Source of the DNA: Pedosphaera parvula Ellin514
GTDB taxonomy: Bacteria > Verrucomicrobiota > Verrucomicrobiia > Limisphaerales > Pedosphaeraceae
Direction of reading: 5' to 3'
DNA: 52,174 bases
Assembly (NCBI RefSeq): GCF_000172555.1
Contig: NZ_ABOX02000054.1
Coordinates: 1 to 52,174, forward strand
Position numbers and translations under genes: made by a program. Below the pieces are notes generated by a model. That model was not told the origin of the DNA. It searched no databases and was given only the letters and a program-made list of their open reading frames with translations. Shown here one piece after another: positions 24,531 to 45,965 of the stretch; the stretch's first letter is position 1, and every line of letters starts with the position of its first letter.

Positions 24531-24536
24531 TTGATT

Positions 24537-26335: not shown

Positions 26336-29300
26336 TCATGGCTTCGCGATCTTCTCTGTCTGGCCGCGTTGCTTTTGCCAGAGATACTCAATTATTCCTT
26401 TATACTTTTCCAGAGTGGCCGGGTCACTCCAATTGTATAAGGGCGTGGGCATAAATCCGCGTGGACGAGGCTGCGCATTCACAATCGCGCGTCTTGTCAG
26501 GGAGATGAGCAAGCTTTCAAGTTCTTGCTGGTTCAATCTCCTGTCATGGTCTTTATCGTAGTTGAGCCAGGCCATCATATTAAAATAGGTCCGGGCTGTT
26601 GCGTGCAGTTGATTCTCCTCCATCACGACTGTCCTCAATTCCTGTTCGCTCAGCGCGCCATCGCGATCCTGATCCCATCGGCGTAGCAGTTCTGCTGCAA
26701 CCAGCGTTTGAACTTTGTCCATTGCCTGCAACTCCGAGTCATCCACTTGGCCATTTTCATTCGCATCGAATAGGGCGAGGTTGTCTTCCTCATCCAGGAA
26801 ACCATTTTTATTCGTGTCGATTGCAGGCCAGTTCACTTCCAGCCAGCGTAGATCCTTCACTGCCGCTTCCTTCTCTTCCGGATTCAAGTTTCCGTCGTGG
26901 TTCAGGTCATACTGAGACAGCAACTCCTGTTGCAGACGCTTTATTCTGGCAACCTCCTCTGCCTCCTGCTGCAACGTAAGTTCCCTTTCATGATTGATGG
27001 CCGCTTGAAGTTGTGCATCAGGAATGAGCCAAACGCCGGGCGTGCCAGGATAACCGATCATCAGGCCATCCGCAGCATGAGCCAACCAAGGAGAACCAAG
27101 ACCCCAGAATCCCTTTTGTGAGCCTAAACTCGCGCTCGGAACGGGACCGCGAGCCACATCGAATTTCAAAGGAACGAACAGTGGCTTTGGCATCCCGCTT
27201 TCCAGGCAAACGAGAAACGCATGATGCCCGTTCTTTTCAGCAGCCGACCATTCCTTGGCCGTATTGGTAACTGCACAATCCTCCTGGAAAAAATGCACGT
27301 TTGTTAGCGTTGCAATACCTGGCGCGCCTGCCGTCTGCATGGGAGAGTTTGGTTTCCAAATGGGCTTGGGCTTCGAATTGTTCGTAGCCAGTTTATTGTT
27401 AAACATCCCGGTACTTGGAATGCCGCCACCGTAAAGCTCAAAGACTTGCTCTTCCCAATAAAGATTGGCATTGGTTCCGGTATGCGCCAGAAACCAAACC
27501 TGAGCCTCGCCTCTCACGGGATTGGAGCGTAACAAGGTGCCCTCCTCAAATACTTCCGGACGCCTGGTCACTGCTAGATTCATGCTTTCTTCCCAGTCCT
27601 TTCCATTCCAGGTATAGAGCTTGTTCCCAATACAGGTCCGGACGGTCTGGTCAGGTCCTGGAAAGAGCAGGGGAGAATTGAGGCTACTCAGGGAGTCCAG
27701 CGCCGTTACCGCCGGACGTCGCCGGTTGCTGGCCAGCATTCGTGTGCCATGCCCTCGATCCAGGATTTCGAAAATACTCTCGTCATTTGCTGCGTACAAA
27801 TGATCCCCAATGGCATACAGCTGACAGAGCTTGGGCTCAGGTATCTCGACTTTCTCCCAATGCCTGGATTCCAGGTCATACCGCATTACGCCCACCGCGC
27901 TGAGGTACACAGCCGACTTGAACAGTTCAAAGTAAAAGCTCTCGTCCTTCGCGCCATTGAACCCCGTGGGTCTTGCGTATGGATCATCGCTGGGCGGATA
28001 CGGAATTATTTGCCAGGCTCCATTTTTTGGATCCAAAATGGCAATGGCAGCTCGATCGGAAATGGGCGAGGAATTATGCGCGGTCTCATCATAGCGCAGA
28101 TCAAGTAATAATTTGCCTTCCCGCACACGATGGGAAAAAACTTTGATGTTGGAAGGGGTTTCACCAGGAAGCAGCTTTTCAGGTATGGCAAAGAACTTAT
28201 CCACCAACAATGCCTGCGCAGACATTTCCGGCGCTTTCAACTCAACGGGCCTGACAACGATCACATTGGTATTTGCGCTTTTCACCGTTTGAGAAGATGG
28301 ATGAAGAATCCTCGCCAATCTGCCCTCAACGATCGTGACTTGGGAAATGCCACCTTGTAATTTGCTCATTTCCACACCGGTCAAGCTTGATGCTCGAGCC
28401 AGGAGATTTGATTTGTAACTGGCGCATAACGGCTCCAGCTCCGCTGCTTGCGCGGGTGAGTATTGATAGAAACTGAATGCGCGGTTGAATGCGAAGAATT
28501 CATATGAGTTGCCTTTCAGAATTTCCTTCTGCTTCTCGAACAAAACGTCGTTTTCCTGTTGCTGTTTGCGCAAACGCAGATTGTTCCAATACTCGCTGTC
28601 CATTGCCTCGAGCTTCGCCCAATACTCATGATAAAGCTGCTGCTCTAATTTTTCCTTCACTGCACTTGAATGATCCAAGCCATTGCGACCAACCAGATCA
28701 CCGAGTCTCCAGTTAAGATAGAGCAATTCAACATTGTTTGTGACAATCGCATCGTGATTGTCAAACAAGAGGGAGATCAGGCTGTTAAATGAATTCGCCA
28801 GTTCCTTCTCGTTGGCTGCCTGTGCCACTTGCAGACTACTGGCCTCCAGTTTGAGGAACAAATTTGTCGAACTATCCAGCTCCTGCCTGAACTGACTCCA
28901 GAGCAGTCGTCCCCTTTCCTTGTCTTGCTGATTCCAAGCGGGGAGCAGTGGACTTGCAAGCTCCCGGAACCAAAGATCCTTGTGGATGTAGCAAAACACT
29001 TCGCTGCTCATTAAACCGCGGTAGAGTGCTATGGTATCTTCTGGTTTTTCCTGCCAGAAGGGACCCCAATGCAGCTTGCATTGAAAAATATTCGGCGCCT
29101 CCGAAAATCGGCCTAGTGTGTCATGCGTGGCGAACTGGTTTCCCACCCAATACGCGTCCCGCACTGAAGGCGATTTTAAAATGTAATCTGAAACCTCCCG
29201 CGCCAGGCGGCGCAGTTCCGCGAGCTTATCTTCCACCCCCTTCTGTGCCTCTGGCACGAGATAGAAATGCTGCAACACTTTCGATGCTCCCGTCAGGGTG

Positions 29301-30631
29301 CTGACTCCCAAACGATACCAGTCCGAGTCCATTTTTGGTTCTTCCGCTGGCAGGCTCTGGCTGAATTCGCGATAGAGGCCTAATACGTGAATGGCCCCGG
29401 CAAGCTTTTCCTGATCGGGTTGATTCAACACCATCAGTATGCGAACGAACTTGCCATCCAATCCACCACGTTCCCAGATCATCGCAGCAGGATGATATGT
29501 CCTCTTATCATCATCCAGTGTCGATCGAGCCTCCTCATCCGTGGCGGTGGTTTCAGAAAGCGAACTCTCCACGAAATGCGGATCCGGAAGCGCGTCTGTC
29601 AAATGTGCTTGAATTCGCACCATGGCACAGTCCAAGTCCCGTTTGCCCAGAGCCCAAGCTGCTTCCGCCGCAGCCTGTGCCTCCTTGTTTACTTGCCATT
29701 TCAACGCCCATTTAGCTTCCTCATAGAATTGTATCGCCTCCGCCGCCGGCTTCCATTCCGGCGCTGAGCTTTGTTTCTTTAGGGATGCCATGATCTGCCT
29801 TGCCAACTGCTCAATCATTTGCTCGGGCTGGTTCCGTTTCCCGGAGATCTCAATCTCCACCGGCGTTCCACCGCCGGGAGGCACCAACCGTGCGCTGATC
29901 GTGGCTTCCTCCTTTGAATAACCGTTTTTATCCACAATCCCTTCCAACAAATAACTCCCGTTCCAGAAGGGGGAGTCTTCCGTTTTCGAAAACTCCTTTT
30001 CCGTGGTCAGCTTGTCCAGTTTGCGACGTTCAAGGACGAACAATTCTTTCTCATGAGTGAGGCGGTTGAGGAGCAGTTCGGTTAATTGGTGCTCGAATTG
30101 TTTGGACTCCGGCGAACTGGCGGCAGAGCGGAGATTGAGAACCGAGATCGGCAATGCATCCTTTGTCAGCACACCCAGTTTGGGCAGAAACGGCTGGAAG
30201 TGTGCCCTGACCAGTTTTGCCCATTCACCCGAATCCTTCATTGGCCACGGGGACTCCATCACATCCAGAATCACCCCTTGTTTCACCGCAATCAGCGTGG
30301 CAGCCAAATGGCTGTTTGTGCCGCTTTGAACCAACCCCAAGGTCAGTAACCCATCCGCCCCCAGAATGTGTCCCACGTCGATGCTTTCCTTGATGCTGAT
30401 CCCGCTTTGCGCCAGCTTTTGTTCCTTTAGAATTTTGTCGATTTCATTTCGTTCCAGGAGAACAACGTTGGTCTGCCCGGAAAGCTCCACCGCAAGCAGG
30501 TCGCCCGCCTGGCTGAATTCTGAACCGGAAAGTATGGCCAGGCGAGGCTGGTTTTCATTCGCACGAACAGACAGGCCAAACCCAATCAAGAGAAGGCAGC
30601 AAAATAAATAATTAACGAGCCTGCGCTTCAT
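26336..30631 (-). CDS. Giant exported protein P1: double CsgG-like N-terminus, propeller-like middle, five EF-hands
   Basis: 1431 residues from ATG 30631 (MKRRLVNYLFCCLLLIGFGL, signal peptide); GTG 30652 would add seven. Two CsgG/FlgT-like half-domains follow: one with VVLLERNEIDKILKEQKLAQSG and ILGADGLLTLG, the second with LFVLERRKLDKLTTEKEF. A helical region (about 300-800) precedes a beta-rich propeller-like region (YDLESRHWEKVEIPEP; LYTWNGKDWEE). Near the C-terminus are five EF-hand loops at about 1242 (DLNHDGNLNPEE), 1272 (DTNKNGFLDEED), 1289 (DANENGQVDDSE), 1320 (DQDRDGALSEQE) and 1359 (DKDHDRRLNQQE, Gly6 replaced). It is probably periplasmic or surface-bound and binds calcium. It is the last gene of the sigma-factor-led cluster and a close paralogue of P2. 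Function unknown. Confidence 0.85.
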   Translation of the reverse strand: MKRRLVNYLFCCLLLIGFGLSVRANENQPRLAILSGSEFSQAGDLLAVELSGQTNVVLLERNEIDKILKEQKLAQSGISIKESIDVGHILGADGLLTLGLVQSGTNSHLAATLIAVKQGVILDVMESPWPMKDSGEWAKLVRAHFQPFLPKLGVLTKDALPISVLNLRSAASSPESKQFEHQLTELLLNRLTHEKELFVLERRKLDKLTTEKEFSKTEDSPFWNGSYLLEGIVDKNGYSKEEATISARLVPPGGGTPVEIEISGKRNQPEQMIEQLARQIMASLKKQSSAPEWKPAAEAIQFYEEAKWALKWQVNKEAQAAAEAAWALGKRDLDCAMVRIQAHLTDALPDPHFVESSLSETTATDEEARSTLDDDKRTYHPAAMIWERGGLDGKFVRILMVLNQPDQEKLAGAIHVLGLYREFSQSLPAEEPKMDSDWYRLGVSTLTGASKVLQHFYLVPEAQKGVEDKLAELRRLAREVSDYILKSPSVRDAYWVGNQFATHDTLGRFSEAPNIFQCKLHWGPFWQEKPEDTIALYRGLMSSEVFCYIHKDLWFRELASPLLPAWNQQDKERGRLLWSQFRQELDSSTNLFLKLEASSLQVAQAANEKELANSFNSLISLLFDNHDAIVTNNVELLYLNWRLGDLVGRNGLDHSSAVKEKLEQQLYHEYWAKLEAMDSEYWNNLRLRKQQQENDVLFEKQKEILKGNSYEFFAFNRAFSFYQYSPAQAAELEPLCASYKSNLLARASSLTGVEMSKLQGGISQVTIVEGRLARILHPSSQTVKSANTNVIVVRPVELKAPEMSAQALLVDKFFAIPEKLLPGETPSNIKVFSHRVREGKLLLDLRYDETAHNSSPISDRAAIAILDPKNGAWQIIPYPPSDDPYARPTGFNGAKDESFYFELFKSAVYLSAVGVMRYDLESRHWEKVEIPEPKLCQLYAIGDHLYAANDESIFEILDRGHGTRMLASNRRRPAVTALDSLSSLNSPLLFPGPDQTVRTCIGNKLYTWNGKDWEESMNLAVTRRPEVFEEGTLLRSNPVRGEAQVWFLAHTGTNANLYWEEQVFELYGGGIPSTGMFNNKLATNNSKPKPIWKPNSPMQTAGAPGIATLTNVHFFQEDCAVTNTAKEWSAAEKNGHHAFLVCLESGMPKPLFVPLKFDVARGPVPSASLGSQKGFWGLGSPWLAHAADGLMIGYPGTPGVWLIPDAQLQAAINHERELTLQQEAEEVARIKRLQQELLSQYDLNHDGNLNPEEKEAAVKDLRWLEVNWPAIDTNKNGFLDEEDNLALFDANENGQVDDSELQAMDKVQTLVAAELLRRWDQDRDGALSEQELRTVVMEENQLHATARTYFNMMAWLNYDKDHDRRLNQQELESLLISLTRRAIVNAQPRPRGFMPTPLYNWSDPATLEKYKGIIEYLWQKQRGQTEKIAKP

Positions 30632-30709
30632 AAGTATTGGCACTGCAACCACCCACCGTTTTTACATGTTCTCGCATTTTGAAAATGAATTGTGACTTAG
30701 TTTGGGTCT

Positions 30710-33700
30710 CTATTTGATCTTTTCGACACCTGCAGTTCTTTGTTGCCGCCAAAGATGCTCCACCACTTTCTGGTATAGTTGCCGGGTTCCGGGATCGTTC
30801 CATTGGAAGGCAAACAACGGCACGCGCGGGCGCATGTCCGGCCAGCTGGGGCGCGCAGTCAGAATGCTGTTGTGAGTGTAAACAGCCAGCATTTCTTGAA
30901 GTTCCTTTTGGTCCAACGATCGGTCGCGATCAGCATCGAAACCTAAACAGAAAGACACACTCACATGAAATTGGGCTTTGGGGCGGGTGCGTCTGTCTTC
31001 GCTCTCAAGCGCCCGCAGTTCCTGTTCATCCAACACCCCATCGCGGTTCTGATCCCAACGTTCGAGGAGTTTGGCTGCAACAACGGATTGAATTTTATCA
31101 ATGGCGGAAAGCTCGGCCTCTTCCGCCTGGTCATTACCATTGGCATCAAAGAGATTCAGATTATCTTCCGCATCCAGTAACCCGTTGCCGTTGGTATCGA
31201 TTAAAGGCCAATTGAGTTCCAACCAGGCCGGATCCAATACGGCCGCTTCACTTTCTTCCGCATCAAGAGTGCCGTCATGATTATGATCGTATCGAGCCAT
31301 CAGCTCTTTCCGCAGATCCTCCGGCTTCTTCTCAGCCTCTCGACGGCGTGACTGGTTATCTTGCATGTCGCGAGCAATGGCTGCATCGATTTGCGTTTGA
31401 GGGATTACCCAGATGCCAGGAAGACTCCCATGTCCAATTACCAGTTTGCCGGCAATCGTAGCCATCCAGGGAAAGGTAAGGCCCATCCGCGGCGCTCTTC
31501 TAAATAAAGTGGAACTCGGAACCGCTCCGTGCTCAGTATCAAACTTTAAGGGAATCGACAAAGGGTCCTGCACTTCGGGATTCAGGCAAAACAGGAAACC
31601 ATGATGGCCGTTCCTTTCTACCGCCGTCATATGTCCCGAGAGGTTTGTAACGCCGCAATCCTCCTGGAAAAAATATAAATTGGTGTTTATGGCGACGCAC
31701 GCGCCTTGTGCTATTTGCACGCCCGGTTTTGGCTTCCAGAACGGCTTCGGTGCCGAAGCGACATTGGTTTGAGGTTCCCCAGTCGTGGCTGGCCTCAAAT
31801 ATGGATTTCCTACCCGCTCCTGCCAGCAAAAGACTGCATTCGTTTCAGCATGCGGCAGGAACCAGATCTGTGCCGCACCACTCAAAGGAACAAAACGCAG
31901 CAGCGTCCCATCCGCGAAATCTTCCGGACCTTTGTTCAACTTCAGGCTCAAACTCCGGTTCCAGGCCTGTCCATCCCAGCTGTAAATACTGCCATTAACG
32001 GACGTGCGAACGGTTTTGCCGGGTCCCGGAAATAAAACCGGCTTATCCAGGCTTTCCAGCGAATCCAATAATGTTATCTCCGGTCTTCTGCGTATGCTGG
32101 CCAGCAGTCGTGTGCTGTGCCCTTGATCCAGTATTTCAAAAATGCTATCGTCACTCGATGCATATAGGCGGCCGCCCATGGCAAAAAGCTGACAAAGCCT
32201 TGCTTCGGGCAGGTGTAAATCCTCCCACTCCATTGTCCTCGAATCATAACGCTTTATACCCTCCCAATCGCTGATGTACAGCGCTCCGTTGAAAAACTCA
32301 AATTGTGAGGTCAGCTCCTCCTGGCCCATGAAGCCAATTGGAACGGAAAGCTGATTAATACCAGCATTACCGTTTGCAGGGTAAGGAATTATCCGCCACC
32401 CCTCGTTTTGTGGATTCCAAATGCCTACGGCGGCGCGGAACAAGGGCCCTGCATTCGGTTGTCTCTCATCATAGCGCAAATCGACGAACAACTTTCCTTC
32501 GCGAACAACATGGGAAAGTGTTCTTAAGTGAGCAATCTTTTCCGCCGGAAAATCCCTCTCAGGGATTTCAAAGTATTTTTCCACAAGCAAGGGTTTGGCT
32601 GAGGAATCGGGCCCGTGCGCTTCCTTGGAATTGAGACGGAAGGCGTTTGTTTGATTGACAGGCTCTTTCCTGGCAGTTGGATTTTGGGAAGTGCGCAGGA
32701 TTTCATTCACCCTCTTCTCAATTATTTCAACTCGAAATATCGCACTGCTTAATTGGGCCTTTTGTCTTTCTGGCAGGTTCGATGTCTGCGTTGAAAGATT
32801 TGTCTTATAATTCGCTAATAATGGTTTCAGTTCCAAGGCTTGGGCGGGTGTGTACTGAAAGAACTGGAAAGCATGCTCGAAGGTAAAAAATTCGTATGAT
32901 GTGCCCTTCAGGATTTCTTTCTGTTGTTCAAATAATACCTGGTTTTCGCGTTGTATCTTTCTCTCACTACTCCTCGTCCAATATTCCTGATCCATGGCCG
33001 CAAGTTTGGGCGCATATTCCGAATTATATAATTTGCCCAATTTAGCTAAGCCCGGTTTTAAGCCCAGGTGCCAGGTGCCCACCAGATCTCCCAGTCCCCA
33101 GTTTTGATATAACACTTCGACATTATTAGTGACGATGGCTTCACGATTATCGAAAAGCAGCTTGAATAGGTTGGTGAAGGCAACCTCCGATTCCTGAGGA
33201 TCAGCGGTTCGTGCCAGCTCAAGGCTTTTGGCCTCCAGTCTCAGCATCAAATTAGTCGAAGCCTCCATCCCTTGAACGAACTGATTCCAAACCAGTGGAA
33301 CCTTCTGCTTGTCCTCTGGTCTCCACGCTGCCAACCGTGGGAATTCAATTCCCCGGAACCAGAAATCTTTGTGGATGTAACAAAACACATCGCTCCTCAT
33401 CAAATCGCGGTAGAGCGCAATTGAATCTTCTGGCGCTTCCTGCCATACGGAGCCCCATAGCAGCTTGCATTGAAATATATTCTGACCTGCCGAAAAGCGA
33501 GCCAGTTCGTCGTGCGTAGCAACTCGTTCTCCAACCCAATATGCATCTCGCACGGAAGGTGATTTCAGAATGTATTCCGAAACAGCACGCGCCAGCCTGC
33601 GAAGTTCCGCGAGCTTATTTTTAACCCCTTTTTGCGATTCGCGCATTAAATAATAGTGCTGTAAAACCTGTGATGCACGGATCAGCGAATTGACACCCAA

Positions 33701-35035
33701 GCGATACCACGCTGAATCCATCCTGGGTTCCTGCGGTGAGGTGGTCTGAGCGAATTCGTAATATAGACTTAGTATGTGGATCGAAGCATCAAGTTGTCCT
33801 TCTTGAGGTGAATTTGCGATGGTGAGATACCGAATGATATCACCATTATCGACTGGGTGCTCCCAAAACAATCCTGCGGCATTGTCATTGGTCTTAATTT
33901 GTTCCAGAGTCCAAATAATCCTTTGTTCATCCTTAAACCCACTCAGCGTCCCACGTTGGTAACCCGGATCAGGCACAATCTCCGCCAGATAGGAATTTAT
34001 CCTTACCAGCGCGCAATCCATATCCCGTTTGCCCAGTGCCCAGGCCGATTCCGCCGCAGCTTGTGCCTCCTGGTTCACGTTCCATTTCAATGCCCACTTC
34101 GCTTCCTCATAGTATTGCATCGCCTCGGCTGCCGGTTTCCACTCCGGCGCTGAGCTTTTCTTCTTCAACGATGCCATGATCCGCCTTGCCAACTGCTCAA
34201 TCATCTGCTCCGGCTGGTTTCGTTTCCCGAAGATTTCAATCTCCACCGGCGTTTCGCCACCAGGAGGCACCAACCGTGCGCTGATCGTGGCTTCCTCCTT
34301 CGAATAACCATTTTTATCAATGATTCCCTCCAGCAAATAACTCCCATTCCAGAATGGCGATTCTTCAGTCTTATTGAATTCCTTTTCTGTGGTGAGCTTG
34401 TCCAATTTGCGACGCTCAAGCACAAATAATTCCCGCTCATGTGTGAGCCGGTTTAAGAGCAGTTCTGTCAATTCACGCTCCAGTTTTTTGGTTTCCTGCG
34501 AGTTCGCCGCTGACCGCAGATTTAGGACTGAGATTGGCAACGCATCCTTGGGCAGTACGCCCAGTTTCGGGAGATATTCCTGAAAATGCGCCCTGACCAG
34601 CCTGGGCCACTCACCGATCTCCTTTATTGGCCAGGGCGATTCCATCACATCCAGAATCACCCCTTGTTTCACCGCAATCAGCGTGGCAGCCAAATGACTG
34701 TTTGTACCACTTTGAACCAACCCCAAGGTCAGCAATCCATCCGCGCCAAGAATTTGCCCCACTTTAATATTATCCTTGAGGCTCGTTTCGCTTAGCGCCA
34801 GGTTCTGCTCCTTTAGAATCCTGTCAATTTCACTTCGTTCCAGGAGCACAATGTTCGTTTGATGCGAAAGTTCCACCGAAAGCAAATCGCCAGCTGGACC
34901 GAATGTCTGGTCTGACAGTATCGCGAGGTGAGGTTGGGGCGTCTCTGCGCCTGCGCACAGACTGCCCGCCAACAAAAGCAGAGGGCAGAACACATACTTG
35001 AGAAAATGGCGCTTTAAAAACATCAGATTTGGCAT
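30710..35035 (-). CDS. Giant exported protein P2: paralogue of P1 with five EF-hand-type loops
   Basis: 1441 residues from ATG 35035 (MPNLMFLKRHFLKYVFCPLLLLAG, signal peptide, ending around AGAE). The layout is as in P1: two CsgG-like half-domains (VLLERSEIDRILKEQNLALS; VLERRKLDKLTTEKEFNK), a helical middle, and a propeller-like part (YISDWEGIKRYDSRTMEWED; VNGSIYSWDGQAWNR). Loops lie at about 1250 (DHNHDGTLDAEE), 1280 (DTNGNGLLDAED), 1297 (DANGNDQAEEAE, Gly6 to Asp, probably weak), 1328 (DQNRDGVLDEQE) and 1367 (DADRDRSLDQKE). Identity with P1 is highest in the N-terminal ~330 residues, where even the DNA is nearly the same, and lower in the middle. It starts 15 nt after the stop of P3 and is followed by P1 after 78 nt, all on one strand. 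Confidence 0.85.
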   Translation of the reverse strand: MPNLMFLKRHFLKYVFCPLLLLAGSLCAGAETPQPHLAILSDQTFGPAGDLLSVELSHQTNIVLLERSEIDRILKEQNLALSETSLKDNIKVGQILGADGLLTLGLVQSGTNSHLAATLIAVKQGVILDVMESPWPIKEIGEWPRLVRAHFQEYLPKLGVLPKDALPISVLNLRSAANSQETKKLERELTELLLNRLTHERELFVLERRKLDKLTTEKEFNKTEESPFWNGSYLLEGIIDKNGYSKEEATISARLVPPGGETPVEIEIFGKRNQPEQMIEQLARRIMASLKKKSSAPEWKPAAEAMQYYEEAKWALKWNVNQEAQAAAESAWALGKRDMDCALVRINSYLAEIVPDPGYQRGTLSGFKDEQRIIWTLEQIKTNDNAAGLFWEHPVDNGDIIRYLTIANSPQEGQLDASIHILSLYYEFAQTTSPQEPRMDSAWYRLGVNSLIRASQVLQHYYLMRESQKGVKNKLAELRRLARAVSEYILKSPSVRDAYWVGERVATHDELARFSAGQNIFQCKLLWGSVWQEAPEDSIALYRDLMRSDVFCYIHKDFWFRGIEFPRLAAWRPEDKQKVPLVWNQFVQGMEASTNLMLRLEAKSLELARTADPQESEVAFTNLFKLLFDNREAIVTNNVEVLYQNWGLGDLVGTWHLGLKPGLAKLGKLYNSEYAPKLAAMDQEYWTRSSERKIQRENQVLFEQQKEILKGTSYEFFTFEHAFQFFQYTPAQALELKPLLANYKTNLSTQTSNLPERQKAQLSSAIFRVEIIEKRVNEILRTSQNPTARKEPVNQTNAFRLNSKEAHGPDSSAKPLLVEKYFEIPERDFPAEKIAHLRTLSHVVREGKLFVDLRYDERQPNAGPLFRAAVGIWNPQNEGWRIIPYPANGNAGINQLSVPIGFMGQEELTSQFEFFNGALYISDWEGIKRYDSRTMEWEDLHLPEARLCQLFAMGGRLYASSDDSIFEILDQGHSTRLLASIRRRPEITLLDSLESLDKPVLFPGPGKTVRTSVNGSIYSWDGQAWNRSLSLKLNKGPEDFADGTLLRFVPLSGAAQIWFLPHAETNAVFCWQERVGNPYLRPATTGEPQTNVASAPKPFWKPKPGVQIAQGACVAINTNLYFFQEDCGVTNLSGHMTAVERNGHHGFLFCLNPEVQDPLSIPLKFDTEHGAVPSSTLFRRAPRMGLTFPWMATIAGKLVIGHGSLPGIWVIPQTQIDAAIARDMQDNQSRRREAEKKPEDLRKELMARYDHNHDGTLDAEESEAAVLDPAWLELNWPLIDTNGNGLLDAEDNLNLFDANGNDQAEEAELSAIDKIQSVVAAKLLERWDQNRDGVLDEQELRALESEDRRTRPKAQFHVSVSFCLGFDADRDRSLDQKELQEMLAVYTHNSILTARPSWPDMRPRVPLFAFQWNDPGTRQLYQKVVEHLWRQQRTAGVEKIK

Positions 35036-35050
35036 TCAGGAATAATCAGT

Positions 35051-38000
35051 TCACTTGGGATGCAATGTTTCTGCCTGTTTGAACGAACCAGCGAATGTTC
35101 TCAGCTCGTTTTCATCCAGATAGCCGTCGTGATTCGCATCATATTGCTTGAGCAAAAGGGAGACTGATGGGAAATCCCTGGAAATGAGCGGAGCAAATAC
35201 AATTTTTTTGCCCTTGATCATTTCTGGAGAAGCTTCTGCGTAAAGCAAGCTTCGTTGGCGCAGAACCTTCAGCTCTTCCTCATCCAGCCTGCCATCATGA
35301 TTGAGGTCAGATCTCTTGAATATTTCCCTGATTTGGACTGAAAGCTGATCCGTGTGCCAGGATCTTTCATCGTTCACATAATCGGGATCTTTTTCCATTG
35401 CCTCGCGTTCCTTGGGATCAAGAATTCCGTTTTTATTCCGATCATATTTTGCCAGCAGCGTTCGTTCCCGATCCTTTTGTTTCGCCTCCTGATAGTTGGC
35501 AAACGTTGCCTCTTCGGCAAACTGTGACCATGGACTTTCCGGAAAACGCCTGATGATCTCCCCGTAAGCCTCGCGCACTGTTTCCGGGTCATTCACACCG
35601 AGGGTGTCGTGGCTGAATGCCAGGAGGAATAATTCCTCCAGGTTTGCCTCGCTGACCGACTTGTTTTTTAGCAGGGCTGCCACCTGGGAATCGTTCCCCG
35701 CGTACAAGGCAAAGAGCGCCCTGGCTCGCAGTGGCATTTTTTCAATCAACTCGTTTCGTTCGCCGGGTGTAATCCCAAGGCTCAACCAATTTTCCTTGGG
35801 GACCGCAAGAAGGTCTTGCTTTTTGACCTGCTGAAGAGGCGAGTCTGAATAAGGCGTCCCCACCCATAGAAATTCACGGGAAACCGCCAAACTCGAAACC
35901 TCGCGGTCCAGCTTGAAGCAGCTTATCCAGGCGAGGCTGGGTTTATGCAATAACATGACATAATAAGGATAACTGCGGATGGCCACCCAGAGGAAGTCTC
36001 CGTCATTCGCCAAGGCGCTGACACCGTCCGGCAGGCGCGCATCCAGATGCAAGGGATCGTTTGACGATGTAGATGGCTCCGAGGAACTCCCATGCAGTTT
36101 GTTTCTCTTTGACTGCAGGCTCTTCAATCCTTGAAATATTTTGTGCCTTGCCTCCTCCACTTTTCTTTCCGGAATGTCTTTTGTGTTCGCGAAATAAAAC
36201 TGGGATTCCTGCAGGGAAATCCCCGGTTCGGAGGTCGGTGTTTTCCAATGCTCCAGATGAGAGTTGTCCAATGTGAGGCGGTCCAAACTTTCAGCCGTGC
36301 CCATCCAAAAAGCGGAAGCGTCGGGAGTCATGCATCGGAGGTTGGGAAGCTCATTTAAGTTTTTCCAACTTCCTCGCGTCAAATCGTAAATCAGGGTGGA
36401 ACCTGAGCTTAGGCATAACCATTCTCCATTGGCTGCCAGGAAAGGATGACGGTCATTGGAACGGGAAAACGATGCTGGTGGCAGAGGAAGGCTTTCCCAT
36501 CTGGAGTGCGGCGTCTTCAACCTCAGGAGTTTGAAATCACCGGTTACGTATATTGCGCCATCGGAAGCAGCGGTTAAACCATCAGTCTCGTGCAGATTAA
36601 ACCCATCTGCCAATCCAACGGAACGCGCACCTGTATTATTTAAACCATAGAAACCAAGCGAGGAACCTCCCAGCCAGATTCCATTCTCGCCCGGAGCCAT
36701 CGATTGGATATTTTCCGGCAGGGAACTGTCGGCACAGCGACTCAGTGTGCTTTTGACAACATCGTAACACCACAGTTTCCCCATTTTGCGGTGCATCTCC
36801 GCCGAGATCTCGGGCTTTTCTGAACTGGATTGGGCCGATGCTTCACTTTCGGCCAGAATCCATAATTTTTCCTGGTGGAAGAGCAGTTGTCTAATGACTT
36901 GCAGTTGCTCGTGCTCGGGGAAGGAAATGCTCTGCAGAGTAGGATTGAGAACTGTTGGAAGCAAACGAGGCGGATTTAAGTTAAACATCGGGCGCACCTG
37001 CCGCAACCAGTCGTTCCCGGTTGCAGAGGGCTTTTGCACCATTGCCGGAGCTGGTAGATGTACTGCCGGGCGGGTATCCCTCTGCACTGGCCGTGAGGGT
37101 GGCGTTGATGTTTGGAAAGCAAAAAGTGAGGACAGCAGTTTGTCTGCTTCCGTGGGCTTGCCGACCTGAGTGTACCATTTTCTCAAGGTTTGTTCCTCGT
37201 TCGTTGGCAGAATCCGCGTTCTTTCCAGATGTTTGGAAAACTCAATGCAAAGCGGCCACACCCCTTCGATCAATCGTAATCGTTCCGGTACATGATCCTC
37301 TTGCTCAAATATTCTTCCCAACACCATGCGCAAGGGAGAGATTTTGAAGGCCGGGTTTTTATCAATATTATTGGTGATGGCGTAGTTGGTTTTGAAATAA
37401 TCTGCAACCCGGCAGAGCCTCTTCCAGTGCTCTGCGTCAATTTGTTGTTTCCATTCCTTTTCAAGGGCAGGGGGGATGTCCGCCGGGAAACCATAAGCTT
37501 GGGCTTTGTTATGGGTCGCCCACATCCGCAAAACCTCGTCGAGCGAAGAAAGATATGGAGCGGAAATACCCTGTGACCCGTACGGGAATGGCAACGTGAC
37601 GGTTTCACCCAAGCCAAATTGATCAACATATTTGCCCCAGGCAACGCTCCTTCGCCACTTCGACCAAAACTCGCTTTTGACTGTAAATCCAAAATCCACC
37701 CAAAATCCCCAGCGGCAACTGATCCTCAGGGCGTGGGCTTTGGAATTGCCTGGTTCAAAAAAGCAGGCCGTTTCCAGCATATGCACAGCCTGTATGAAAG
37801 TTTCCTTGTTATGCAGCCCCATCGTTGGATGTCCCTGTGATTCAAGGCTGGTGTAGGTTTTAAGAATTTCTTCCGTGATGGCGTGCCGCATCTGACTCGT
37901 GTCCGTTTGGTGACCGTGCTTTCCAGCCTGCGACAGGATTTGTTGGGTGGCTTTATGCAGAAGACTGGTGATCTGCTCGGGCGAAGCAGTCCATTGCTTC

Positions 38001-38986
38001 GATAAAACAACTTCCTGTTTGAATGTTTTGAACGGCAAAACGCCGTCCCAGACATTGACTGTGACCATCAACTTCGGATTGGCTCCCTTCAACTCCTGCA
38101 TATTCGAAGTGGTATAGGACCCCCACACGTAGAGGTCTGCAGAATGTCGCCATGCATTGAGATCCGCTTCGGCAAAACCTTCCAAAACCATTTCTGCTTC
38201 ATCCATGGATTGATAAGCCTTTGGAAAGCGTACGATCCGGATTTGCGAATTGGTTTTCGTCGCTTGCTGCAGAGCCTGAAAAAACTCGCGCTGCAGAATT
38301 TCAGTGCCCCGTTCGTAAGTGCTAAGATCTGCAAAAAAGAGTGGGGCGACCAGGACTTGATGGGAGGCTTCCTTCGCTTTCGAGCGCGACAGGGCCAAAA
38401 TTTGATGCACGGTTTCAGCAGCGGCTTCCAGTTGGCGGGATTGTGGCGAGGCATTCTCCCCGGCTGCTTCCGGAAGTATCAACGTTTGTGTGACCAAGGT
38501 GTCCGCGTGCTGGAGATCAGTCACCTCAAAGGACAAGGTACGCCGGTTCTGATCGTCGTGGGAGAATTCACCGGTTAACAGCCATTCTGCCTTGGCCCAC
38601 TTGCCGCGGCGGACGGGAGCGGTTTCACCAAGGTTCCCAAGTTCAGCCAACCCCAGTTCGCGGCCGGCAAGTTCCAGTTGAGTGCGCTCAACCCACTCAA
38701 TTCCGGGCTCATCTTGAAGGCGTGTTTGCAACATGCTTGCGAAATCTGCAGCAGCCTGTGCATTCCGGTAGGAGTTATCATCCGTGCTGAAATCCATCAT
38801 CGCCACCCTGATTGAACTTGAATCGGTCGATTTTCCCGGAAAGTCAGCTTGTGCAATTCCGCCGCTAAACACGCAGCAGAAAACCAAAATCTGAATGAAG
38901 GCGGGATTTCGACAACAGTGAATAATCGGCAACATCAGTTCGAGCAAACCACGCTGGCTGCCTCCGGTTTTTCCACTCGCTAACAT
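35051..38986 (-). CDS. Giant exported protein P3: CsgG-like N-terminus, reg_prop-like propeller, three EF-hands
   Basis: 1311 residues from ATG 38986. ATG 38935 (MLPIIHCCRNPAFIQILVFCC) gives a better-placed signal peptide and may be the real start. After export the protein begins with a CsgG-like domain (IRVAMMDFSTDDNSYRNAQ; IEWVERTQLELAGRELGLAEL; WLLTGEF), followed by a second segment with ADLYVWGSYTT. The middle has blade-like repeats of the two-component-propeller style (GENGIWLGGSSLGFYGLN; ASDGAIYVTGDFKLLRL; REFLWVGTPYSDSPL). A TPR-like stretch (about 1100-1180) leads to three EF loops: DRNKNGILDPKE, DLNHDGRLDEEE and DANHDGYLDENE. It is a distant paralogue of P1 and P2. It begins 24 nt after the CsgG-like gene, in the same operon. 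Confidence 0.82.
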   Translation of the reverse strand: MLASGKTGGSQRGLLELMLPIIHCCRNPAFIQILVFCCVFSGGIAQADFPGKSTDSSSIRVAMMDFSTDDNSYRNAQAAADFASMLQTRLQDEPGIEWVERTQLELAGRELGLAELGNLGETAPVRRGKWAKAEWLLTGEFSHDDQNRRTLSFEVTDLQHADTLVTQTLILPEAAGENASPQSRQLEAAAETVHQILALSRSKAKEASHQVLVAPLFFADLSTYERGTEILQREFFQALQQATKTNSQIRIVRFPKAYQSMDEAEMVLEGFAEADLNAWRHSADLYVWGSYTTSNMQELKGANPKLMVTVNVWDGVLPFKTFKQEVVLSKQWTASPEQITSLLHKATQQILSQAGKHGHQTDTSQMRHAITEEILKTYTSLESQGHPTMGLHNKETFIQAVHMLETACFFEPGNSKAHALRISCRWGFWVDFGFTVKSEFWSKWRRSVAWGKYVDQFGLGETVTLPFPYGSQGISAPYLSSLDEVLRMWATHNKAQAYGFPADIPPALEKEWKQQIDAEHWKRLCRVADYFKTNYAITNNIDKNPAFKISPLRMVLGRIFEQEDHVPERLRLIEGVWPLCIEFSKHLERTRILPTNEEQTLRKWYTQVGKPTEADKLLSSLFAFQTSTPPSRPVQRDTRPAVHLPAPAMVQKPSATGNDWLRQVRPMFNLNPPRLLPTVLNPTLQSISFPEHEQLQVIRQLLFHQEKLWILAESEASAQSSSEKPEISAEMHRKMGKLWCYDVVKSTLSRCADSSLPENIQSMAPGENGIWLGGSSLGFYGLNNTGARSVGLADGFNLHETDGLTAASDGAIYVTGDFKLLRLKTPHSRWESLPLPPASFSRSNDRHPFLAANGEWLCLSSGSTLIYDLTRGSWKNLNELPNLRCMTPDASAFWMGTAESLDRLTLDNSHLEHWKTPTSEPGISLQESQFYFANTKDIPERKVEEARHKIFQGLKSLQSKRNKLHGSSSEPSTSSNDPLHLDARLPDGVSALANDGDFLWVAIRSYPYYVMLLHKPSLAWISCFKLDREVSSLAVSREFLWVGTPYSDSPLQQVKKQDLLAVPKENWLSLGITPGERNELIEKMPLRARALFALYAGNDSQVAALLKNKSVSEANLEELFLLAFSHDTLGVNDPETVREAYGEIIRRFPESPWSQFAEEATFANYQEAKQKDRERTLLAKYDRNKNGILDPKEREAMEKDPDYVNDERSWHTDQLSVQIREIFKRSDLNHDGRLDEEELKVLRQRSLLYAEASPEMIKGKKIVFAPLISRDFPSVSLLLKQYDANHDGYLDENELRTFAGSFKQAETLHPK

Positions 38987-39010
38987 GCAGGATGCAATGC
39001 CGGGGATTGA

Positions 39011-39964
39011 TTATTTCGCAGTTAGTTTCGGCAGCAGGCGTTCAGCCAATTCCAGGGCGGCATTTTGCAGGGCGGTTTTGGCCGCTGTCTGCTCGGCAAT
39101 ATCCACGGCCACGCTGGTTTGACGATCCTGAGTCAAGATCTTTCCACCCTCCCGCTGTTGAGCTTTGATTTCCACACGGGAACGGCACGAAATCAGATTG
39201 CCTTTGCGCATGCCATAAACACTGAAAGCTTCCCCGGTGATTTCGATGTCAGGCTTGTCAGTGGATTTGTCATCCAGGACAGTAAATCCAGCCTTTTGCA
39301 GGATCATGGCAAGTTCGGTTTCTGCGGCGGGGTCAATCACAGCACCACCGAAGTGGCGTTCCGCAATCTTAAGCGATACCGAGGGACGTTTGCCCTCTTT
39401 GAGCGATTTCACAAGCTTATCAATTTTCTCCTCAGGGCTTTCGAATTTGGCAACCAACGTTGCGCCTTTCTCCGAGACGGTTTTGCCAATTTTTTTTGCC
39501 AGCTCGGCGGAAAGATCGGAGATTGAGGCAGACGCCGTCCCCTTGACCAGTTCGCCATAAACACGGCTGGTCTCCGTGCCAATGATCTTGGCAACCATGA
39601 TCAATTCTTTGTCCGCTTTGAAAACACGCCCGGTAACCAACACTTTCGCTCCGGTAAGATGTCCTACCTTGGCAGCGGTGTCAGCGGAAACGGTTCCCGA
39701 AAGTCCCAGTTCCTGTTCGCCCAGGACCTTTTCCAGTTCCGCCCGCTCAACCGTGATGATCTGCGGTTCGGCGGAGAGATTGGCATTTACCAGGGTGGCG
39801 ATTTTGGGACCCAGATCGTGCACGGCTTCATCTTTCGATTCAAAATCGAAGATGGCCACAGTCAATACATCCGGGTCCGCCGCGCGTGCGGTGGCGCAGA
39901 GCAACAAAAACAGGCTTACGATTGTTGATAGTGATAGTTTCATATGGTGGATAAACCTTTTCAT
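39011..39964 (-). CDS. CsgG-like exported protein
   Basis: 317 residues from ATG 39964, overlapping the stop of the preceding gene by 4 nt (ATGA). Signal peptide MKLSLSTIVSLFLLLCATARA. The CsgG/HfaB-type signature is clear: VAIFDFESKDEAVHDLGPKI, IITVERAELEKVLGEQELGLSG, AAKVGHLTGAKVLVTGRVF. A second alpha/beta part follows (AETELAMILQKAGFTVLDD; ISCRSRVEIKAQQREGG; ELAERLLPKL). CsgG proteins form outer-membrane export pores and are lipoproteins; no lipobox Cys is seen here, so this is more likely a periplasmic relative. It is the single-domain form of what P1-P3 carry at their N-termini, suggesting they act together or co-assemble. Confidence 0.85.
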   Translation of the reverse strand: MKRFIHHMKLSLSTIVSLFLLLCATARAADPDVLTVAIFDFESKDEAVHDLGPKIATLVNANLSAEPQIITVERAELEKVLGEQELGLSGTVSADTAAKVGHLTGAKVLVTGRVFKADKELIMVAKIIGTETSRVYGELVKGTASASISDLSAELAKKIGKTVSEKGATLVAKFESPEEKIDKLVKSLKEGKRPSVSLKIAERHFGGAVIDPAAETELAMILQKAGFTVLDDKSTDKPDIEITGEAFSVYGMRKGNLISCRSRVEIKAQQREGGKILTQDRQTSVAVDIAEQTAAKTALQNAALELAERLLPKLTAK

Positions 39965-40794
39965 CGGTTGTTTTCGGAGAAATGAAGTTGCTCCGGCATG
40001 GTGGCCAATCCCACTGCGCGGAGCAGATTCAATTGTGATTGAGGGTTTAATTGGAAATCAGAAACAAGGGAGGATTGCACGATTACAACAGTGCCGTTCA
40101 CTGCCTGTACGGGAAGCATCCGCGGTTCTGTCATGGCGCCTGGTTCCTGATCAGGAACAATCCAGACTACGGCTTTATCCGCTTTTGCCAGAATCGCAAC
40201 TTTGCGTTTCAGCTCTGAAGATTTGCTGCTCAAGTGAATGGGTGACCAAACAATCGCCAGATTTCCCGAGAACTTTTCCGCCTTGGTATCCGCGAGGTCT
40301 TCCACATCGAGAGCGTAAGCTTTGAGCAGCGGTTTGAGATGGTTTTCAGGATCATAAACTCCCACCGGAAGCCCTTTGGCCAGCGGATGCAGTTCGGTAA
40401 GTAGATTGGTGGGGAAGACGAAAACTTCCGTTTTACCGATGACCCCGGCAGCGTCATCAATCCACTGTATAAGAAAGCGAGTCATGCTTTTCACCTCCGG
40501 GAAATTGAAGGTGCCTGATTCAAGCACAGTTTGACTGGAAAGGACCTGCAAGGTCTTCCAGGGATCCGATTTTCCAAAAGGAGCTGCCGTGGATGAACTG
40601 ACCTGATACATCCGGGTGCGCACGGAGACGTTTGTGCCACTGGTTCCCGGATTGCGAAAGATCACTTCGATCGAGCGGGCCGGACCGGAAAAAACAGACT
40701 GTACCTCGCGAGAATGAACAACCTCCAGTTGTGCCAGGAGAGGCTGAGCCGCACAGAATGGCAGCAACAAAATCCATTTTCGTAACCAGTTCAT
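39961..40794 (-). CDS. Exported hypothetical protein of the sigma-factor operon
   Basis: 277 residues from ATG 40794, where MNWLRKWILLLPFCAAQPLLAQ forms a signal peptide; the frame extends upstream to 40956 without support. The first half looks like a beta-sandwich (VHSREVQSVFSGPARSIEVIFR; GTNVSVRTRMYQVSSS). The second half looks alpha/beta (KLPVGVYD-like GLPVGVYDPENHLKPLLKAY; NLAIVWSPIHLSSKS; AVVWIVPDQEP). I recognise no family. A 247-bp gap containing a strong hairpin separates it from the anti-sigma-like gene; downstream it overlaps the CsgG-like gene by 4 nt. It probably acts in the periplasm with that protein. Confidence 0.75.
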   Translation of the reverse strand: MNWLRKWILLLPFCAAQPLLAQLEVVHSREVQSVFSGPARSIEVIFRNPGTSGTNVSVRTRMYQVSSSTAAPFGKSDPWKTLQVLSSQTVLESGTFNFPEVKSMTRFLIQWIDDAAGVIGKTEVFVFPTNLLTELHPLAKGLPVGVYDPENHLKPLLKAYALDVEDLADTKAEKFSGNLAIVWSPIHLSSKSSELKRKVAILAKADKAVVWIVPDQEPGAMTEPRMLPVQAVNGTVVIVQSSLVSDFQLNPQSQLNLLRAVGLATMPEQLHFSENNR

Positions 40795-40957
40795 GTTTGT
40801 GTCATCAATCGGCACCTGATGGTAGATGCAAGTTTGCCTCCCGCCCAATTCTCTGACCAATAGGATAATTGAGTTCCGTAATTCCTTTGAACTTTCACAC
40901 TCAGGAGTGGAACCGTGCCGTGGAGTCGAGTCACATTGGACTGGCTGGTTAGCCAAG

Positions 40958-40999
40958 GCCTGCCGATGGATGGACTGTTATCTCCATCCAACGGCAGGC
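40958..40999 (-). promoter_or_regulatory. Strong hairpin in the anti-sigma/structural gene gap
   Basis: Arms GCCTGCCGATGGATGGA (40958-40974) and TCCATCCAACGGCAGGC (40983-40999) pair over 17 bp with one mismatch and an 8-nt loop. No T run follows on the minus strand, so it is not a classic terminator. A processing site or stabiliser that separates expression of the sigma/anti-sigma pair from the large downstream genes is plausible. Confidence 0.6.
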
Positions 41000-41041
41000 T
41001 GGCACTCCCATCTCCATGGCGAAAAATTAGGTTCATTTGGT

Positions 41042-41647
41042 TCAAAGGGCTGCTTCCAAAGGTTTAGCTTCGATTTTCAGGGATTGCGCCAGATTGGCAT
41101 TATCATTACCAGCCCAGAATGAGCTTTTTCCAACCAGCATCACCTGGCCCTCGGGAGTGGCCAAAACCTGGTAGGTTTCACCGTTCGCTTGAACGGTTTG
41201 GCCGCTGAAGGTGATGAAACCCTTGCAACCCTCCGGTCCGCAAATTTTTACCAGCAGGGGCGGGGAGTTGGGCACATTCGGGTTCTCTGAAAGAACCAGG
41301 TGCGTCCCTTTTTGATCAAATACTATGGCCTTAACTTGATTTGGAAAAAGTCCTTCAATCTCATGATAATATTTTCTCGCATCAGCCAGTTGTTGAGTAT
41401 TGAACCCCGACTCCTTTCCACGCCAGAACCCGACTGTAAAACCAAGAACGATACAGGTGGTGGCAAGGGCAAATCCCCAGGCTGCCAGGAGCCTCCGTCG
41501 GGGGCTGGCGTGAACACTTTGATCCATGGATGGCTTGTGCCAATGGAGTCTGGCCGTAATGCCTTTTGCAAAACTGTTCCAATAGGCTTCATCACGCTGA
41601 GGCACTTGCGCGGACTTCAGTATTTCATCCAGCTCTTTATCATTCAT
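41042..41647 (-). CDS. Membrane anti-sigma-factor-like protein
   Basis: 201 residues from ATG 41647, overlapping the sigma-factor gene by 8 bp, which implies coupled translation. A cytoplasmic N-terminus of about 50 residues is followed by one membrane helix at about 53-75 (LLAAWGFALATTCIVLGFTV) and an exported domain of about 125 residues (KAIVFDQKGTHLVLSE; GQTVQANGETYQVLATPEG). The topology and position match an anti-sigma factor that holds the sigma at the membrane. The zinc-binding HxxxCxxC motif of ZAS anti-sigmas is absent, so the assignment rests on context and topology. Confidence 0.7.
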   Translation of the reverse strand: MNDKELDEILKSAQVPQRDEAYWNSFAKGITARLHWHKPSMDQSVHASPRRRLLAAWGFALATTCIVLGFTVGFWRGKESGFNTQQLADARKYYHEIEGLFPNQVKAIVFDQKGTHLVLSENPNVPNSPPLLVKICGPEGCKGFITFSGQTVQANGETYQVLATPEGQVMLVGKSSFWAGNDNANLAQSLKIEAKPLEAAL

Positions 41648-42191
41648 GCGACACCTCTTTAGTGTGAGCTTTGGAAAGCAGTTTTTTCAGTTTCGTGCGG
41701 GCGGCAAAAATGCGCCATGAGACCGTGGTTTCGGAGCAACCCAAAACCTGGGCGGCTTCGGCGTGATTCAGACCGTCATAGGTGGTAAGCACAATCGCCG
41801 CTCGTTGCTTTGGACGCAGTTTCATTAGCGCTTCCTGGACTTGTTGCGCACGTTTGCCATCGGGAGTGGTTTCCGTATCCAAATTCTGACCGTACTCCTC
41901 GTGCGCTTTTTGCTGACGTTGCTGACTTTTTCGCCAGTTTAGACATAAATTGATGCCGATGCGGTAAAGCCAGGACGAGAACTTTGAGTCTCCGCGGTAG
42001 GTATGGATCTGCCGAAACGCCTGGATAAAAGTGTCCTGGGCCAGATCCTCACCATCGGTGAGAGAACCAGTCATCCGGTATGTCAGCGCGTGAATCATTT
42101 TTTGATAACACTTGATGAGTGCTTCAAATGCCTCATGGTCGCCTTGACGGCTTTTGCCAATCCATACTTTTTCTTCATCTATTACGGCCAT
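41640..42191 (-). CDS. ECF-type RNA polymerase sigma factor
   Basis: 183 residues from ATG 42191. Region 2 is clear (YRMTGSLTDGEDLAQDTFIQAF, HTYRGDSKFSSWLYRIGINLC), and region 4 has MKLRPKQRAAIVLTTYDGL and HAEAAQVLGCSETTVSWRIFAARTKLKKLL. There is no region 3 or 1.1, and the length fits ECF sigmas of the RpoE-like group. It leads a same-strand cluster of seven genes ending with P1 and probably controls it. The gene is divergent from moxR across 151 bp. Confidence 0.95.
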   Translation of the reverse strand: MAVIDEEKVWIGKSRQGDHEAFEALIKCYQKMIHALTYRMTGSLTDGEDLAQDTFIQAFRQIHTYRGDSKFSSWLYRIGINLCLNWRKSQQRQQKAHEEYGQNLDTETTPDGKRAQQVQEALMKLRPKQRAAIVLTTYDGLNHAEAAQVLGCSETTVSWRIFAARTKLKKLLSKAHTKEVSHE

Positions 42192-42281
42192 GCGGCGTTA
42201 TTCTTTAATGGGTAAGACAGGTGTCGGCGACAAATCCTTTGATAATTTTGAAAAAATTTTGAACGTGTTGCGCGATTGAAT

Positions 42282-43332: not shown

Positions 43333-43387
43333 AAACCTCACTGCGGTCCAACATGACCTCTTGCAGCCATAGTAGTTGCAGTAGCCC

Positions 43388-45956: not shown

Positions 45957-45965
45957 TAAACTAGC

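Follow-up and report, generated by a model that had tools for sequence, protein, structure and literature searches.

The operon analyzed here occupies positions 26336-42191 of a 52,174-nucleotide (nt) stretch of Pedosphaera parvula Ellin514 (contig NZ_ABOX02000054.1, positions 1-52,174, hereafter the window), with all of its genes on the minus strand. Seven open reading frames (ORFs) were found again where a first-pass annotation, made from the letters alone, had placed them, in the order SIG, an extracytoplasmic function (ECF) sigma factor; ANTI, a single-pass anti-sigma-like protein; EXP, an exported protein; CsgGs, a secreted protein with CsgG-type domains; and the giant exported proteins P3, P2, and P1 (Table 1). 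The recomputed intergenic gaps of -8, 247, -4, 24, 15, and 57 nt, with the 247 nt taken to the EXP ATG at 40794, agree with the earlier values except for the last, as the 78 nt given before between P2 and P1 reflects a later ATG of P1 and 57 nt is the distance from its GTG start. The first four genes are regarded with high confidence as a conserved, autoregulated unit.

Table 1. Features of the SIG operon, in order of transcription
Feature	Coordinates	Strand	Basis
Putative ECF promoter before SIG	42213..42241	-	CAAAGGA, 16 bases, GTCTTA (= CAAAGGA-N15-TGTCT)
SIG, ECF sigma factor, 183 amino acids (aa)	41640..42191	-	PF04542 2e-18, PF08281 3.9e-14; TIGR02937 over cut-off
ANTI, single-pass anti-sigma-like protein, 201 aa	41042..41647	-	Hydrophobicity; 8-nt overlap with SIG; family members after SIG in relatives
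Hairpin in ANTI-EXP gap, 16 base pairs and one internal mismatch	40959..40998	-	RNA fold
Putative second SIG-type promoter before EXP, TCAAAGGA-N15-TATCCTAT	40860..40890	-	Weight matrix; one -10 position off consensus
EXP, exported protein, 277 aa from ATG at 40794	39961..40794	-	Position upstream of CsgGs
CsgGs, secreted, 317 aa, tandem TolB/FlgT-like and CsgG/PelC-like domains	39011..39964	-	PF03783 36.2 bits; model pLDDT 93.3; fold matches
P3, giant exported protein, 1311 aa, CsgG-like N-terminus	35051..38986	-	hhalign to CsgGs 96.8%; P3-type relatives beside unit
P3 EF-hand tail, 3 loops	35105..35443	-	Pfam and loop count
P2, giant exported protein, 1441 aa, P1 paralogue	30710..35035	-	57% identity to P1; CsgG twice, EF-hands
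P2 EF-hand tail, 5 loops	30902..31288	-	Pfam and loop count
P1, giant exported protein, 1438 aa	26336..30652	-	ORF, Pfam, AlphaFold2 (AF2) model
P1 tandem alpha/beta domains, about residues 37-159 and 167-290	29783..30544	-	AF2 model; LpoB domain among Foldseek matches; hhalign 97.8%
P1 mostly helical region, about residues 302-783	28304..29752	-	AF2 model
P1 beta-propeller, about residues 812-1211	27020..28219	-	AF2 model; VIA-align Z 15-18
P1 EF-hand tail, 5 loops	26522..26908	-	Pfam and loop count

SIG consists of sigma regions 2 and 4 only, both over the Pfam cut-off. In ANTI, a hydrophobicity scan located a single hydrophobic segment that starts at residue 53, preceded by an N-terminal part of about 50 residues and followed by a C-terminal domain, in which the family alignment (27 of 51 listed rows and the window) revealed an LFP-type motif with a nearly invariant F. 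The window protein matched no Pfam family, anti-sigma domains included, and no Hx3Cx2C motif was read in its sequence; among 28 family members there were isolated weak matches to unrelated families. According to a passage of PMC7406223, an anti-sigma domain that falls short of 50 residues may belong to a divergent class II factor, and ANTI could be one of these, which provides a lead. EXP of the window matched no Pfam family, 2 of 45 members touched DUF4350 weakly, and the best match in a PDB search had an E value of 0.053 (family alignment, 44 of 69 listed rows and the window). The 247-nt gap between ANTI and EXP folds at -87.1 kcal/mol (z -3.6), an energy reached by 1 of 200 shuffled sequences. 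The pattern of its hairpin occurs at one place in the whole genome and is followed by the second promoter-like site, which has a matrix score of 20.0 that none of 300 shuffles equaled. The hairpin could separate the levels of regulators and effectors.

Conservation was analyzed in 79 named loci, the matches listed when named genomes were scanned with CsgGs, a query from one order, so that the set does not amount to a survey. By submitters' titles, counted by hand, the 79 listed loci comprise 55 of Verrucomicrobia type, 10 planctomycete, 10 from Lentisphaerae or Kiritimatiellota, 3 unspecified, and 1 from Proteobacteria. In the surroundings of the relatives it is SIG, ANTI, EXP, and CsgGs, the first four genes, that stay constant, and not the giants. 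Using profiles grown from the window proteins, EXP was found upstream of CsgGs in 70 of the 79 listed loci and the full unit in 47. Where at least 3.3 kb of upstream sequence was available (65 loci), EXP was present in 60, ANTI in 45, SIG in 44, and all three in 42. SIG and ANTI are at most 300 nt apart in 47 of the 50 listed loci that have both. The linkage of SIG to CsgGs is that seen in loci found by CsgGs, a search by which like sigma factors lacking CsgGs would be missed. Pairwise distances computed for each of the four proteins over 47 rows, from 46 loci and the window, are correlated between the proteins (0.79-0.90; permutation maximum, 0.24). CsgGs was detected in 37 of 293 genomes of the order (E ≤ 1e-30) and in 57 of 387 of the phylum (E ≤ 1e-40), the own genome included in both counts, and is missing from G001 of the same genus (G, C, and L numbers denote genomes, contigs, and loci); the system is accessory and patchy. 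Geminisphaera colitermitum TAV2 (L134), a named strain that is in culture, carries the unit, with the anti-sigma matches falling in two frames. Departures in gene content were also noted: loci in which three to six small CsgGs paralogues follow one another, either replacing or accompanying a giant (L085, L093, and L094), and a shortened sigma gene directly before CsgGs, with ANTI and EXP missing, on G044:C274 (L069/L084), in a genome that has a second locus with SIG, ANTI, EXP, and CsgGs on G044:C469.

Promoters were analyzed in 48 regions upstream of SIG, from 47 named loci with a SIG score of at least 190 bits and 230 nt upstream, and from the window. A de novo two-box count returned AAGGA with GTCT in up to 16 of the 48 regions, compared to a maximum of 5 in 10 shuffled sets. 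The exact pattern [AC]AAGGA-N14-16-YGTCY was present in 22 of 48, always with a spacer of 15 nt, and in none of 20 shuffled sets. A weight matrix built from these 22 regions gave a site (P ≤ 0.05) in 20 of the other 26, bringing the total to 42 of 48, and a box variant, AAGA with TCTA, emerged de novo in 9 of those 26 (shuffle maximum, 5). Across all fetched loci, 1.55 Mb of partly overlapping sequence in which some loci are counted twice under different ids, the matrix yielded 48 sites with scores of at least 18 and 59 with scores of at least 16, compared to 0 and 5, respectively, in the reversed sequence. Judging from these sequence patterns, the SIG unit is probably autoregulated.

Among the 50 matrix sites of at least 16 in the window and the 79 named loci, 31 precede SIG, 8 EXP (the window and 7 of 70 named loci with EXP), 3 CsgGs, and 3 ANTI, one of the latter overlapping the ANTI start; 1 lies before a divergently transcribed P1-like giant (L116) and 4 elsewhere. 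Strong sites were also found upstream of orphan giants in G004 (24.8) and G002 (19.1), which speaks for a wider regulon in these two relatives. A regulon limited to the operon, first read from a single strict site, was not retained, as the looser pattern and its control do not decide the matter. In G004 (L063), a very short ORF (about 26 codons) lies between the site at 7971-7941 and the orphan giant at 7845 on the minus strand, overlapping the start of the latter; it could be a leader or the remnant of another gene. Outside the core unit, sites at L081:6083-6113 (minus strand, 22.0) and L083:19822-19852 (plus strand, 19.9) stand beside small ORFs of 138 and 285 aa, respectively, which are possible further members of the regulon.

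Large genes recur beside the unit. Downstream sequence of 2 kb or more after CsgGs was available in 63 loci. In 48 of these an ORF of at least 600 aa is adjacent on the same strand, and in 43 one bearing a CsgG/TolB-like module (profile E ≤ 1e-3). In the 50 loci with SIG and ANTI, a module-bearing large ORF is adjacent in 31, and in 30 of the 39 of these that have at least 2 kb downstream. The module-bearing ORFs sit between SIG and EXP or after CsgGs. The giants are therefore no accident of this genome, a possibility ruled out by their recurrence beside the unit in others, and the earlier proposal of a dedicated sigma unit with exported CsgG-fold proteins held up in these neighborhoods. Their composition varies: when 14 chosen large proteins, some of them second neighbors, were compared with Pfam, 4 had PF03783 over cut-off, 3 had it below cut-off, and 2 had no match. 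The other domains were Sel1, ankyrin, TPR, EF-hands, a 3-keto-disaccharide hydrolase domain, and, weakly, Reg_prop and Kelch. The protein with ankyrin comes from the second large ORF at L138, and in the L088 protein with TPR the profile detected no module.

The giants of the window share an N-terminal module with CsgGs. P1 and P2, the products of a tandem duplication, are 57% identical over nearly the whole length, and PF03783 matches each over cut-off in two stretches (43.7 and 48.5 bits, respectively). The CsgG-like N-termini claimed by the first-pass annotation were thus recovered by Pfam in P1 and P2, whereas P3 scored 17.0, below the cut-off of 20.8, and was linked to CsgGs by comparison of family profiles with hhalign (96.8%, E 2.6e-10; 97.8% for the P1/P2 family). 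The CsgG fold itself is indicated in P1 by the model, in P3 by profile, and in P2 through its identity to P1. The AF2 model of P1 residues 31-1230, from a 20-row alignment, has a predicted local distance difference test (pLDDT) of 82.6; in it two alpha/beta domains are followed by a long helical region and then a propeller. The propeller matched propellers in general, mostly of WD40 type, and these matches filled the VIA-align list, in which the N-terminal and helical parts were barely probed. The propeller-like middle reported earlier is accordingly a predicted beta-propeller in P1, and in P3 depends on reading of the sequence and on sub-cut-off Reg_prop or Kelch matches in its relatives in L083 and L096. 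NCBIfam gave sub-cut-off matches only, the best to XopAW, a calcium-binding effector family (56.8, cut-off 120), which is ascribed to the shared EF-hands.

P2 was matched in 16 and P3 in 10 of 58 genomes, including the own (E ≤ 0.001), many of the matches being short and limited to the N-terminus or EF-hands. In G005, CsgGs is 80% identical and the giant 41-43%. A counter-case is G019, with a P1-like giant on C498 and no unit within the 10 kb read, while G019:C555 carries EXP, CsgGs, and a second P1-like N-terminus. Two orphans whose N-terminus is CsgG-like, of 1069 aa on G000:C4 (L067:4906-8115) and 1057 aa on G000:C28 (L068:7509-10682), have no sigma/EXP/CsgGs unit in the 15-16 kb read, and similar proteins are found in G002, G004, and G005:C94.

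The CsgGs model, from an alignment of 89 rows (88 of 90 listed and the window), contains two alpha/beta domains. Domain 1 matched TolB (2hqs_B, Z 14.6, 2.6 Å, 122 residues) and FlgT (Z 13.7, 2.4 Å, 128 residues). Domain 2 matched a curli-complex chain (6lqh_A, Z 12.8, 2.8 Å, 125 residues), CsgG (4q79_A, Z 12.6, 2.8 Å, 129 residues), and PelC (Z 11.8, 2.7 Å, 116 residues). Z values within 1 of each other are ties, and a common fold does not show function.

These features can be joined in an explanation in which ANTI would hold SIG at the inner membrane until a signal from the envelope releases it; the outer part of ANTI, in partnership with exported EXP, may be what senses this signal. SIG would then bind a non-canonical promoter (-35 [AC]AAGGA, -10 YGTCY) predicted before its own gene and in some loci also before EXP, CsgGs, or a giant. 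The products, which have N-termini resembling signal peptides when read directly, would be secreted and most likely act in the periplasm, where CsgGs, a predicted soluble tandem-domain protein, may serve as a conserved adaptor or ring-type piece. The giants would dock through the alpha/beta module they have in common with CsgGs and contribute interaction parts that differ between them (helical or TPR, propeller, Sel1, and optional EF-hand tails). They would act as scaffold arms that bind clients at the wall or the outer membrane, with calcium modulating only those that have EF tails. Taken as a whole chain, an autoregulated envelope-response module of the Planctomycetes-Verrucomicrobia-Chlamydiae (PVC) group that makes a periplasmic scaffold, this explanation is given about even chances. 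A more specific version, an undescribed PVC envelope machine with CsgGs as periplasmic ring or adaptor, interchangeable giant arms, a dedicated sigma factor whose own promoter type stands before the regulators, EXP, and CsgGs and also before distant giants, and a new anti-sigma family and EXP in sensing, is tentative and rather doubtful.

Several observations weigh against the explanation as an envelope-response module. No significant promoter was found in 6 of the 48 SIG-upstream regions, and four matrix sites stand at odd distances (L139, L150, L134, and L124). In the own genome, CAAAGGA-N14-17-GTCYTA has 1 match, that before SIG, compared to 3 in the backwards control, and the exact motif is not enriched (40 matches compared to 42), so that it is conservation and position that speak for the specificity of the motif. 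The orphan CsgG-like giant on C28 has one of the 40 matches 16 nt before it (matrix 12.1, P 0.02), and the expected number of such placements for two orphan genes is about 0.0003, a figure worked out after the fact. No matrix site precedes the orphan giants on G000:C4, G005:C94, G007:C714, and G019:C498, that at G000:C28 is weak, and G004 and G002, which carry the promoter-marked orphan giants, have no CsgGs at E ≤ 1e-30. ANTI is a putative anti-sigma factor by position and topology only. In the 65 loci with sufficient upstream sequence, 17 have EXP only, 1 (L093) ANTI and EXP without SIG, 2 SIG and ANTI without EXP, and 3 none, and some but not all of the incomplete units are at contig ends. 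An adjacent large ORF is missing in 15 of 63 loci and a module-bearing one in 20, and the correlated distances would also be expected from shared descent alone. A ring of CsgGs is suggested by analogy with its fold relatives, and TolB, its best match, is not known to oligomerize according to a passage of PMC3173608.

Maintenance of the wall or outer membrane of the Tol or Lpo kind, with the giants as enlarged TolB or as LpoB-like activators of wall synthesis, is an unlikely alternative that has several points in its favor. TolB leads the structural matches of CsgGs domain 1, P1 joins such alpha/beta domains with a propeller, LpoB is among the top Foldseek matches of P1, and no match to TolB_N (PF04052) was found in the genome at E ≤ 1. 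The scores of LpoB and TolB in the Foldseek list, which gives no position in P1 for the TolB alignment, are modest. The general nature of the P1 propeller and the patchy occurrence of CsgGs in the order speak against this alternative, as does the finding that the seven proteins match no family of Pal, TolA, or PBP.

EF-hands suggest another alternative, a calcium-dependent adhesin or matrix operon in which giants secreted to the surface would be assembled through calcium. In line with the three to five loops counted by the first-pass annotation, canonical 12-residue loops number 5 in P1, 5 in P2, and 3 in P3, all are well formed and within the last 260 residues, PF00036 matches at 1.3e-12, 1.8e-9, and 5.8e-12, respectively, and calcium binding is predicted; the signal-peptide-like N-termini also fit. 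Yet just 10 of 63 loci have EF loops in an adjacent large ORF (L082 has a further EF-bearing ORF outside the adjacency rule), and near-full-length P1-type relatives in L081, L096, and L113 stop where the tail would start. The hydrophobicity scan found no second hydrophobic segment in P1-P3 and so no C-terminal membrane anchor, with no dedicated search made for sorting signals. The EF-hands are an optional tail, and calcium is ruled out as the general organizing principle; the adhesin is improbable. The EF tail of L080 aligns to that of P3 (41%, 96 residues) and part of it also to the P2 tail, by which exchange of tails between giants is only suggested.

A CsgG-type secretion channel, in which CsgGs or the giant N-termini would form an outer-membrane pore exporting or displaying the giants as CsgG does curli subunits, would account for the PF03783 matches, the alignment of CsgGs domain 2 to 4q79_A, and the co-occurrence of large module-bearing ORFs with CsgGs. 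However, the PF03783 match spans only positions 50-100 of 210, and such a pore is unlikely because the predicted CsgGs has no inserted membrane strand pairs or hairpins in its secondary structure and no lipobox, to which a weak match was found in just 3 of 91 family sequences. The genome contains no curlin repeats (PF07012), which the same search detected in an Escherichia coli control. The export pore implied at first on the basis of the CsgG domains was not borne out, the channel is very improbable as an explanation, and a curli system is ruled out on these same grounds.

The operon is adjoined in the window by a divergent MoxR / DUF58 / BatA-like von Willebrand factor A / BatD / TPR operon of Bat type (42343-50657). 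The latter is ruled out as part of the system, as it occurs from MoxR onwards in G001 (same genus) and G002 (same family) with the cassette genes absent from the several kb read before MoxR. On the other side, 24531-26168 encodes a protein that resembles L-fucose isomerase domains below cut-off; its identity is 78-80% in G003, G005, and G006 and 62% in G004, and G001, G002, and G007 gave no match.

The envelopes of PVC bacteria are unusual, and little is understood of how they are regulated. Both the TolB/CsgG fold and sigma/anti-sigma operons are of known kinds. No paper on their combination, or on its recurrence in the PVC group, was found in the library of papers searched, and a published ECF group entry noting a CsgG neighbor may exist. 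The four-gene unit extends across loci with titles from Verrucomicrobia, Planctomycetes, Lentisphaerae, and Kiritimatiellota, and two of its proteins, ANTI and EXP, match no Pfam family. The unit offers a handle on envelope regulation in this group through its predicted structures, its predicted sigma/anti-sigma pair, and a predicted promoter type by which EXP and giants are marked as well.

In comparison to the CsgG channel, CsgGs shares the alpha/beta fold of its domain 2 and a PF03783 match over cut-off, and differs in its two tandem domains, the missing lipid-anchor motif and membrane hairpins, and a genome without curlin. Domain 1 of CsgGs resembles the alpha/beta domain of TolB in its predicted fold (Z 14.6), although PF04052 has no match in the genome, and P1, like TolB, has a beta-propeller by prediction. 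P1 is more than three times as long as the TolB chains among the structural matches, has two alpha/beta domains and EF-hands, and its propeller does not directly follow the first alpha/beta domain, as the second and a helical region of about 480 residues stand between. FlgT, PelC, and LpoB belong to the same fold group as the CsgGs domains. FlgT and PelC form periplasmic rings, the PelC structure entries being titled dodecamers, and LpoB activates a wall synthase. Unlike the lipoproteins PelC and LpoB, CsgGs has no lipobox, and no flagellar, Pel, or PBP family is represented among the seven proteins. RpoE-RseA is a module for envelope stress made of an ECF sigma factor and a membrane-bound anti-sigma factor. 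The unit described here is unlike that type in that ANTI matches no Pfam family and in its link to EXP and a CsgG-fold protein, and it resembles it in the order of a SIG gene and a single-pass anti-sigma-like gene, in apparent autoregulation, and in the exported proteins of the operon. Compared to usual ECF promoters, with AAC at -35 and CGT at -10 according to a passage of PMC8103513, the SIG-type promoter fits at -10 and has [AC]AAGGA in place of AAC at -35.

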